Origin: Balneola sp.
Lineage (GTDB): Bacteria; Bacteroidota; Rhodothermia; Balneolales; Balneolaceae
Direction of reading: 5' to 3'
Assembly (NCBI GenBank): GCA_017640785.1
Contig: JAEPPZ010000001.1
Span: 434,001-498,000, forward strand
Length of the DNA stretch: 64,000 nt
The position numbers and the translations under genes were made by a program. The notes beneath the pieces were generated by a model, which did not search any database, was not told where the DNA came from, and worked only from the letters and a program-made list of their open reading frames with translations. Position 1 is the first letter of the stretch, and each line of letters begins with the position of its first letter. Below are positions 61,675-64,000 of the stretch, piece by piece.

Positions 61675-62934
61675 TTAGTCTGAAATATTTGTGAGTGCTT
61701 TGGCTTTCAGTAAAGTTTCTTCCCATTCTTGTCCCGGTATAGAGTCTGCTGTTATAGCACCGCCAACAGGATAAACCAGCTTATTACTCTTTATTAAGGC
61801 CGTTCTAATAACAACGCTAAAATCGAAATCATTTTCAGGAGTAAAATACCCAATGGCTCCAGAGTATACTCCTCTTCTATAGTCTTCAATTTCTTCAATT
61901 GCTTTCATCGCTGCGATCTTTGGTGCCCCGGTCATTGAACCCATCGGGAAACATGCTTTTAATATTTTTATAGGATCAGTTGCTGCTTTTGCTTCCGCTT
62001 CAATTGTTGAAACCATCTGATGAACAGTTTCAAAACTTTGTATTTCAAAAAGCTTTGAAACTTTTACAGAACCCTCTTTTGCTATTTTACTTAAATCATG
62101 GCGAACAAGATCAACGATCATCAGATTCTCAGCTCTCTCTTTTTCAGAATTACTTAATTCTTCAATTTTTAAACTGTCTTCCTCTTCAGATCTGGAAACC
62201 GTTCCCTTAATTGGTTGAGATATTATTTTATTCCCCTTCTTTGATAAAAACCTTTCCGGTGAAGCAGAACAAATCTCTAAACCATTAAACTTTATGTAAC
62301 TACCAAATGGAACCGGTCCAACTGCTTTCATTTTCTTGTAAAGATCCCAGGCTTGTCCTGTTAATTTAAACTCAAGTGGGTGAGAAATATTTATCTCATA
62401 GAAATCCCCTTCTCGAATCGAGTTTTGAGCAGTAATTATTTTCTCCAGATATTTTTCTTTTTCCAGTTGATGAGTAGAGATAATAGAAATCTCGCCCTCA
62501 ATTTCAGTCATTGGAAGGTCTTTACTTAACTCACCTTTAATAACCTCAACTCTATCATCAGAAATTTTTACTACTAATTCCGGTATAAAGAAGTAAAGAT
62601 CCGGAGCTTCCAATGATGCTGGATTCTCAGAAACAAGGTCTTCTATTGAATTTTTAAGATCGTACCCCAAAAACCCAAACATCCATTCCATTGGGTACTT
62701 TGTTCTGAAATCCTGAAAAGCTTCCCATGGATTTTTCTCTAGTTCTGCCACGCTCCCGTTTTCAAGAAGATGAATTTTGTTTCCATATGCTCGTATCGAG
62801 GTTTTAGAACCCGCTGCAATAAATGACACAGTGCTGGATGGATGGTTTTTCATCTGAGATTCTAATAGAATAAAATCTTCTTTCTTAGAATAGTGCCGAT
62901 GAATGGATGATATTATTTGGTCTTTATCAGTCAT
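61675..62934 (-). CDS. pabB: Aminodeoxychorismate synthase component I
   Basis: 419 residues. Chorismate-binding domain (about 160-415) with ISQPIKGTVSRSEEED, where PIKGT lysine is the feature separating PabB from TrpE (PIAGT). Further motifs are LMIVDLVRHDLSKIAKEGSVKV, ETVHQMVSTIEAE, FPMGSMTGAPKIAAMKAIEEIEDYRRGVYSGAIGYF. It makes 4-amino-4-deoxychorismate for folate. No adjacent pabA or pabC is seen in the window. Divergent from pyrD. Confidence 0.88.
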   Translation of the reverse strand: MTDKDQIISSIHRHYSKKEDFILLESQMKNHPSSTVSFIAAGSKTSIRAYGNKIHLLENGSVAELEKNPWEAFQDFRTKYPMEWMFGFLGYDLKNSIEDLVSENPASLEAPDLYFFIPELVVKISDDRVEVIKGELSKDLPMTEIEGEISIISTHQLEKEKYLEKIITAQNSIREGDFYEINISHPLEFKLTGQAWDLYKKMKAVGPVPFGSYIKFNGLEICSASPERFLSKKGNKIISQPIKGTVSRSEEEDSLKIEELSNSEKERAENLMIVDLVRHDLSKIAKEGSVKVSKLFEIQSFETVHQMVSTIEAEAKAATDPIKILKACFPMGSMTGAPKIAAMKAIEEIEDYRRGVYSGAIGYFTPENDFDFSVVIRTALIKSNKLVYPVGGAITADSIPGQEWEETLLKAKALTNISD

Positions 62935-63008: not shown

Positions 63009-64000
63009 ATGCTATACAAAAGCCTGATCAAACCACTTATTTTTAAGAAAGACGCTGAACAAGCTCATGATCTTGCTTTAAAGATTTCTAGTGCAACTAA
63101 CCAATCTGTTGCGCTCCAAAAACTAGCATCTCTATTATATGGGGGTGGAACAGATCTTGAGAGAGAATTTTGGGGACTTAAGTTTAAAAACCCGATCGGT
63201 TTAGCAGCAGGGTTCGATAAAAACGGATGTACTCCAAAAGCTATGCAAGCACTGGGATTCGGCTTTATAGAAATAGGAAGTATTACCGCTAAGCCCTCAA
63301 CCGGAAATCCAAAGCCCCGAGCCTTTCGACTTCCCAAAGATCATTCTTTGATCAACAGAATGGGATTGAATAATGAAGGTACTGATGTAGTAGTAAATCG
63401 TTTGGAATCTCAAAATTTAGACATCCCGCTTGGTATTAATATCGCTAAGACCAATGATTCTACTATCCACGGCAGAGATGCTATTCTAGATTATGCATAC
63501 AGTTATGAGAAAGCTCAAATAGTAGCCGATTATATTACAGTAAATATCTCATGCCCAAATACCGGCGAAGGTAAAACTTTTGAAGATCCTGAAGCATTAA
63601 CATCGCTTTTAAAAGAATTAGATCCTTCATCAAATACAGTTCCAACACTTGTTAAGTTTTCTGTTGATACAAAACCTGACGTGTTATCGAAGCTTGTTGA
63701 GATATGTGAAAACTTTGGTGTTGACGGATATGTTGCTACAAACACTTCATCAAACAGAAAAGATTTAATTACTTCAAAAGAAAAATTAACCACTATTGGA
63801 AACGGTGGACTTAGTGGCTCAGCTATAGCCAAAAAAAGTGACGAGGTAATTCTAACTCTTTATGAAATACTTCAGGGTTCAAAACCAATTATTGGAGTTG
63901 GAGGCATAGATAGTGTTGAGGCTGCCCAAAGAAAAATTGATGCAGGCGCTGATCTGCTTCAGGTTTATACCGGATTGGTTTATGAAGGTCCCGGTTTAAT
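63009..64000 (+). CDS. pyrD: Dihydroorotate dehydrogenase, class 2-like, 3' end cut by window edge
   Basis: Open from ATG 63009 to the end of the window (330 residues visible). The N-terminal helical extension of class 2 (membrane, quinone-linked) enzymes is present (MLYKSLIKPLIFKKDAEQAHDLAL), then FWGLKFKNPIGLAAGFDKNG, FIEIGSITAKPSTGNPKPR, INRMGLNNEG, and later GYVATNTSS, GGLSGSAIAKKS and PIIGVGGIDSVEAAQRKIDAGADLLQVYTGL. The active-site strand reads VNISCPNTGEGKTFED: Cys182 stands where the class 2 catalytic base is Ser (SSPNT). This cysteine is a class 1 feature. Confidence 0.94.
   Translation, partial: MLYKSLIKPLIFKKDAEQAHDLALKISSATNQSVALQKLASLLYGGGTDLEREFWGLKFKNPIGLAAGFDKNGCTPKAMQALGFGFIEIGSITAKPSTGNPKPRAFRLPKDHSLINRMGLNNEGTDVVVNRLESQNLDIPLGINIAKTNDSTIHGRDAILDYAYSYEKAQIVADYITVNISCPNTGEGKTFEDPEALTSLLKELDPSSNTVPTLVKFSVDTKPDVLSKLVEICENFGVDGYVATNTSSNRKDLITSKEKLTTIGNGGLSGSAIAKKSDEVILTLYEILQGSKPIIGVGGIDSVEAAQRKIDAGADLLQVYTGLVYEGPGL

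Follow-up and report, generated by a model that had tools for sequence, protein, structure and literature searches.

A class 2-type dihydroorotate dehydrogenase of Balneola sp. with a predicted cysteine base, and a possible coupling of serine bases to a loop arginine

The pyrD gene at the end of the window, that is, of the whole 64,000-nucleotide stretch of Balneola sp. DNA analysed here, is very likely to encode a quinone-reducing class 2 dihydroorotate dehydrogenase (DHODH) in which a cysteine, Cys182, stands in for the usual serine base. Judged by sequence comparison, the Cys-type class 2 PyrD is a real and functional-looking variant that extends across the window's bacterial class. Cys in class 2 is already known from fungi; what is added here is a likely Cys-first polarity and a testable pairing of the Ser base with an Arg on the same loop. 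Polarity and pairing are less sure than the identification of the enzyme as a class 2 DHODH that reduces quinone and uses Cys as its base.

Sequence sets

From 434 loci, five without a DHODH frame (L105, L113, L114, L158 and L182) were dropped, and the remaining 429 were scored as class 2 (380), class 1 (33) or ambiguous (16). The core set comprises those 326 of the 380 class 2 rows that keep the six catalytic residues named below and carry either Ser (129 rows) or Cys (197 rows) at the base position. Distinct sequences make up 295 of the 326 core rows, some genes having been fetched twice; a set at 80% redundancy holds 231 rows. A scan for the Cys pattern itself supplied 59 of the 197 core Cys rows.

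Results

The window PyrD has class 2 architecture and a cysteine at the base position

The features of the gene are collected in Table 1. Its full frame occupies window-equivalent positions 63009-64034 including the stop codon (64032-64034), the last 34 bases lying past the window end at 64000, and the ORF is intact in the genome contig (L001:1354-2379). The N-terminus of the protein reads MLYKSLIKPLIFKKDAEQAH..., and this extension aligns with that of the E. coli class 2 PyrD (PDB 1f76). The active-site motif is encoded by AAT ATC TCA TGC CCA AAT ACC, in which TGC at 63552-63554 specifies Cys182, counted from the ATG at 63009. In the 1f76 alignment, which is gapless over the loop, Cys182 aligns to E. 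coli Ser175 and Lys189 to Arg182, in agreement with the usual E. coli residue numbers. Codons and alignment thus confirm what the initial annotation had described, namely a NISCPNT motif with Cys at the base position and a following loop, GEGKTFED, unlike the usual PGLRxLQ. Lys71, Asn116, Asn179, Asn184, Lys216 and Asn245, the residues with FMN and substrate roles, are all kept. The EQAH at residues 17-20 fits the ExAH pattern reportedly described in Sousa 2021. Its His20 column is kept in 237/246 Cys and 130/133 Ser class-2-like rows, and the full E-x-A-H is found at the extension columns in 146/197 Cys and 71/129 Ser core rows.

Table 1. Position of pyrD and of its active-site features in the window
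Feature	Position	Strand	Basis
pyrD, class 2 (quinone-type) DHODH, 341 aa	63009..64000	+	NCBIfam NF003652 and TIGR01036
N-terminal class 2 extension, ~residues 1-46	63009..63146	+	EQAH at residues 17-20; aligns with 1f76
INRMGLN, active-site Asn116 kept, Leu120 at the Ser-type Phe position (E. coli Phe115)	63351..63371	+	alignment columns
Active-site loop motif N179-I-S-C182-P-N184-T185	63543..63563	+	codons; gapless over motif against 1f76
Loop GEGKTFED, Lys189 (63573-63575) at the Ser-type Arg position (E. coli Arg182)	63564..63587	+	alignment

Divergent from pyrD, a 419-aa gene that by eye resembles a chorismate-binding synthase component I (PabB/TrpE type) lies at 61675-62934 of the window (- strand); its start precedes the pyrD ATG by 74 bases.

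The window PyrD passes the class 2 models NF003652 (375.2 bits against a cut-off of 267) and TIGR01036 (317 against 200) and matches the remaining eight of the ten NCBIfam class 2 models without reaching their cut-offs. Its scores with class 1 DHODH models are 71-114 bits, far under the cut-offs of those models. The best solved relatives are class 2 enzymes (7ut5, E 7.6e-64; 1f76, 7.9e-61; human, 4e-57), and class 1 structures are much weaker (1ep1, 3.2e-17; 1dor, 1.5e-10). Alignment begins at residue 2 with 7ut5 and at residue 5 with 1f76, and the N-terminal membrane/quinone extension is therefore present. Both alignments and both models agree with the class 2 extension and core noted at the outset. 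With E. coli PyrD and human DHODH (1f76, 1d3g) the protein has in common the N-terminal extension, the FMN/orotate residues, alignment over nearly the full length and the passing of TIGR01036 and NF003652; compared with the E. coli enzyme, it has Cys182 for Ser175, Lys189 for Arg182, Leu120 for Phe115 and GEGKTFED for PGLRTLQY. The Ser base, a textbook hallmark of class 2, is absent, with Cys182 in its place. The Cys base and the SCPN motif are shared with the class 1A and 1B enzymes (L. lactis PyrDA, 1dor; PyrDB, 1ep1), but these lack the N-terminal extension, a difference that also keeps the window PyrD apart from class 1A, and they score far lower.

The source genome (3.39 Mb, 99.7% complete) contains a single PF01180 match, which is pyrD, and two PF00115 (haem-copper oxidase) matches. 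The class 1B partner PyrK (PF10418) was not found in it at E<=1, whereas the same search gave a match in 12 of 14 control genomes, in 6 of the 14 over the curated cut-off. Among the loci fetched, the nearest named records are from Balneola sp. HCUG1436-7 (79%, BLAST) and other Balneolaceae. We infer Cys as the base and quinone as the acceptor, to which the kept extension, the PF00115 oxidases and the lack of a PyrK match point only indirectly.

Cysteine occurs across the sampled bacterial class and in other phyla

We searched 74 genomes of the window's bacterial class (42 + 32) with the window protein. A class-2-type pyrD was found in 72 of them, and all 72 genes carry Cys. The other two (G018 and G069, family f7) have a class-1-type DHODH in place of the class 2 enzyme; their loci, L093 and L095, show a class 1B-like motif, a replacement inside the window's class. 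In another genome of the genus (G159), a 94%-identical gene has the identical TGC codon. Because this codon recurs there and Cys is found in every class-2-type gene sampled from the class, a sequencing error at 63552-63554, which the initial annotation had considered, is excluded. For other classes of the same phylum, 45 genomes with a class-2-type gene were read, of which 36 have Ser; the 9 with Cys belong to families f24 and f26. A second copy in G273 (L432, family f34), left out of this per-genome count, also carries Cys.

Scanning the genome collection for Y-x-x-[hydrophobic]-N-x-S-C-P-N-T gave at least 117 stretches. Among the matches listed, 102/117 are class-2-like, under at least 23 named phylum labels, although part of them are divergent paralogues; 59/117 of the matches listed keep the six catalytic residues, under at least 11 named phylum labels. 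These core labels are Pseudomonadota, Balneolota, Fibrobacterota, Methanobacteriota, Bacteroidota and Rhodothermota, and further Kerfeldiibacteriota, Armatimonadota, Myxococcota, Nitrospirota and Melainabacteria. Since pattern matches with intact catalytic residues occur under so many labels, Cys is frequent in class 2 sequence data. A PF01180 search of 26 pattern-matched genomes gave a single match in nine; the rest have extra matches, some of them weak or partial.

Several Cys-bearing genes are divergent and DHODH-like (L103, L116, L120, L128, L160 and L172), with motifs such as SCPNTxxGRxFF or QDGEPF. By eye, L103 and L128 lack the Asn of INRMG, a position at which Val is found in 46/246 Cys rows. 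In G301, G302, G306, G308 and G316, a divergent gene of this kind is accompanied by another DHODH gene. Such divergent genes are probably not the housekeeping DHODH. An EGKTFED-type class 2 enzyme with ~46-49% identity to that of the window was seen in Candidatus Kerfeldbacteria (L124, G299) and in the genome to which the Woesearchaeota record of L112 belongs (L236, G304). Both are small-genome lineages with no PF00115 match, and horizontal transfer of the enzyme into them is possible.

Two of three rootings place the serine enzymes inside the cysteine enzymes

With the loop columns removed, 7 Ser/Cys changes are needed on a tree of 93 rows and 8 on a tree of 121 rows. A rooted tree was built from 68 rows, with 12 class 1 rows as outgroup. 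Fibrobacterota-type Cys rows branch first, followed by the window's 20-row Cys group (weakly joined, 80/80), a single Cys row from Armatimonadota and, last, a crown (support 98/94), which holds all 23 Ser rows together with six secondary Cys lineages (10 rows). A coherent Cys-bearing group with class 2 architecture, the existence of which had been left to be checked, is thus found in the tree. The crown is nested again under class 1B-only rooting (support 100), and rooting with class 1A only gives the deep split little support (75 and 7). The class 1 branches in the rooted tree are long, and treekit flagged a warning. Because Ser enzymes nest inside Cys enzymes when the tree is rooted on class 1, the Cys of the window group was probably retained from the ancestor of class 1 and class 2. 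Read most simply, the tree has Cys at the start of class 2, as in class 1, a single gain of Ser in the crown and several later returns to Cys there. A 'mechanistic switch', one of the two options suggested for the window enzyme, is not supported by this order: whether the outgroup is the full set of class 1 rows or class 1B only, the group falls outside the Ser crown, and its Cys is most simply a retained one.

A different history, in which Cys is not ancestral and a lineage-specific Ser-to-Cys switch took place at the base of the window's class, would be compatible with the main mechanism too. Changes of this kind are known elsewhere, as seen from the six Cys lineages within the Ser crown and from the Cys-bearing L403 when compared with its close relative L309. 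We nevertheless regard such a switch as rather unlikely, given the position of the window group outside the crown under these two rootings and given its active-site shell. This shell (Leu120, Ser91, Ala146) is unlike that of the crown, whereas most secondary Cys rows examined keep the crown shell: L056, L411, L250, L265, L297, L291 and L337 have Phe, Thr and Gly at these positions, the exceptions being L308, L403 (Ile for Phe) and L344.

Serine bases are accompanied by an arginine on the active-site loop

Retention of Cys, the reading that we prefer, leaves the Ser enzymes as the derived form, and these differ from the Cys enzymes in a second loop residue. Seven residues after the base, Arg is present in 128/129 Ser rows and absent in 184/197 Cys rows of the core set (326 rows). 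The pairing is also seen at 80% redundancy (Ser with Arg 106/107, Cys without Arg 115/124) and in the core rows outside the Cys-pattern scan (128/129 and 135/138, respectively). The only core row with Ser and no Arg is L401. Cys together with Arg occurs in 13/197 core rows, ten of Fibrobacterota type plus L055, L219 and L344, and these rule out a strict two-way rule in which Ser goes with Arg and Cys goes without it. From the alignment the rule looks one-sided, in that Ser would need Arg and Cys would be free.

In the Cys lineages of the crown, the Arg position is taken by Thr or Val in Succinivibrionaceae relatives, by Ala in f24/f26 and by Phe or Tyr in haloarchaea. In relatives of the alphaproteobacterial genome G309, Cys, Val, Leu or Ile and, separately, Ser are found there. 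Two of these relatives, L403 and L309, show a recent Ser/Cys change in which the whole loop is altered, one reading SCPNVTGHSATQ and the other SSPNTPGLRAMQ.

On the best tree there are eight independent Ser/Cys contrasts. Arg agrees in seven, opposes in none and is unchanged in one (L344), which gives p 0.016 in a sign test. Doubt attaches to two of the seven agreeing contrasts: two trees put L392 among the deep Cys rows, whose type of active-site shell it has; L426 is set at an unsupported fork. Without these two, five contrasts agree and one is a tie. Restriction to supported branches leaves five contrasts, with a median p of 0.0625. Phe115 and Thr178 (E. coli numbering) behave in a similar, one-sided way. 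At E. coli position 115, Phe is found in 128/133 Ser rows, and Cys rows have Leu (162/246) or Phe (77/246); at position 178, Thr is found in 133/133 Ser rows and in 232/246 Cys rows.

We tentatively propose that the Cys-base class 2 enzyme is ancestral and that the Ser base may be a derived, coupled device that arose a single time in the crown (Ser175 and Arg182, in most cases together with Phe115 and Thr178), with later returns to Cys releasing the Arg with few exceptions; we hold this combined reading at below an even chance. The reason for the Ser-Arg pairing is one that we infer. A 1999 study by Bjornberg reportedly found E. coli S175C to be ~500-fold less active, and in the same work trypsin is said to cut at Arg182. 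With S175C reported to be so strongly impaired, Cys does not seem to be freely interchangeable with Ser.

Cysteine is not a general mark of anaerobic life, and a changed acceptor is improbable

In PMC8520639, fungal class II enzymes that are active anaerobically are described as carrying Cys at the base position, and Cys class II enzymes as functional in yeast. Given these published functional fungal enzymes, the Ser base is no strict class 2 criterion. The Cys-type Ura9 enzymes of Sch. japonicus, D. bruxellensis and Neocallimastigomycetes resemble the window PyrD as class 2 enzymes with a Cys base (PMC8520639). According to the same paper, however, Neocallimastigomycete Ura9 has no N-terminus, unlike the window PyrD, and the fungal Cys enzymes are tied to anaerobic growth, whereas the source genome of the window PyrD has its two PF00115 oxidase genes.

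Following the proposal made for anaerobic fungi, Cys could mark enzymes that hand their electrons to fumarate, NAD or free flavin and no longer to quinone. In PMC8520639, C265S abolished the anaerobic function of SjUra9, which is in line with this proposal, but C168S left growth with ArUra9 unchanged, and KmUra9 S263C kept aerobic growth and gave no anaerobic growth, so that Cys is neither required in the former nor sufficient in the latter. For the window PyrD, we consider a changed acceptor improbable: its N-terminal extension is intact, in contrast to the truncated Neocallimastigomycete enzymes, and the genome yielded no PyrK in the search described above. The distribution of PF00115 also speaks against it. 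Of 46 genomes sampled, 37 carry a Cys enzyme, 8 a Ser enzyme and one, G018, its class-1-type enzyme. PF00115 is present in 26/37 Cys-bearing and 5/8 Ser-bearing genomes and in G018. The Cys-bearing genomes with PF00115 include 10/10 of the window's class, 5/5 of G309 and relatives, 2/2 of f24/f26, 3/3 of G297 and its phylum (haloarchaea-type) and 6/10 others. On the other hand, PF00115 is absent in 11/37 Cys-bearing genomes, among them 7/7 of the Succinivibrionaceae group, G299, G304, G318 and G311, as a changed acceptor would have it; it is also missing in 3/8 Ser-bearing genomes. Because PF00115 is common with Cys and missing in some Ser-bearing genomes, oxygen use and Cys are unlinked. The idea of Cys as a general anaerobic signature is ruled out by these counts, and Cys is no mark of anaerobic life in bacteria, though the Succinivibrionaceae group, which lacks PF00115, shows Cys in 7/7 genomes tested.

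Some genomes do have, next to another DHODH gene, a DHODH-like second copy with Cys and without the INRMG Asn, but with Cys in 72/72 class-2-type genes of its class, pyrD as the sole DHODH match of the source genome and all six catalytic residues checked and kept, it is hardly conceivable that the window gene is a sequencing artefact or a paralogue without DHODH function.

Discussion

In a Balneola-like bacterium that has a respiratory oxidase of the oxygen type, the pyrD product would serve as the housekeeping DHODH, of class 2. Its N-terminal helices are predicted to seat the protein on the membrane, where PyrD with FMN would oxidise dihydroorotate and pass the electrons to the quinone pool. 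Cys182 would abstract the C5 proton of dihydroorotate, as does the Cys in class 1 and Ser175 in E. coli PyrD. This residue appears to belong to a deep class 2 group in which the Cys has most likely been kept since the common ancestor of classes 1 and 2. From such Cys-type class 2 enzymes the classical Ser enzymes would then have derived, and these would depend on an Arg partner in the same loop (E. coli Arg182). Lys189 and the GEGKTFED loop may be tolerated in the window PyrD because Cys enzymes would not need this Arg.

The base has been questioned as a class marker before. Sousa, Refojo and Pereira reportedly stated in a 2021 abstract that the catalytic base is no absolute criterion separating class 1 from class 2, and the same work is said to describe membrane-bound dihydroorotate:quinone oxidoreductases in six sub-classes, 2A-2F, with an ExAH motif. 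PMC8520639 cites Sousa 2021 for 'few reported exceptions' to the Ser base, and PMC10395836 tabulates class 2 as Ser; the passages of PMC8910288 and PMC6611227 examined add nothing on Cys in class 2. The suggestion of a 'poorly described sub-class' therefore stands in part: PMC8520639 describes fungal class 2 enzymes of the Cys type, while in the open-access papers searched no paper was found on the window's bacterial group, on the Ser-Arg pairing or on Cys-first polarity. Similarly, the view that the protein is an ordinary class 2 enzyme with a common variant is right in that Cys is documented and, among sequenced genes, frequent; the tree, however, keeps the window PyrD outside the Ser enzymes.

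The identity of the base as Ser or Cys is a textbook divider of the DHODH classes. It is broken by the window's bacterial class, as sampled, and by other phyla, in which the quinone-type architecture is kept. Because Cys occurs together with this architecture, the base is unfit for assigning class or acceptor. If the proposed coupling is true, E. coli S175C would fail because its loop partner is the wrong one for Cys, and Cys should work once the loop is altered, for example to the Succinivibrionaceae-type PGLTxLQ. The Ser-Arg pairing would offer a cheap and direct test of how serine becomes basic enough for this chemistry, in an enzyme that is a drug target.
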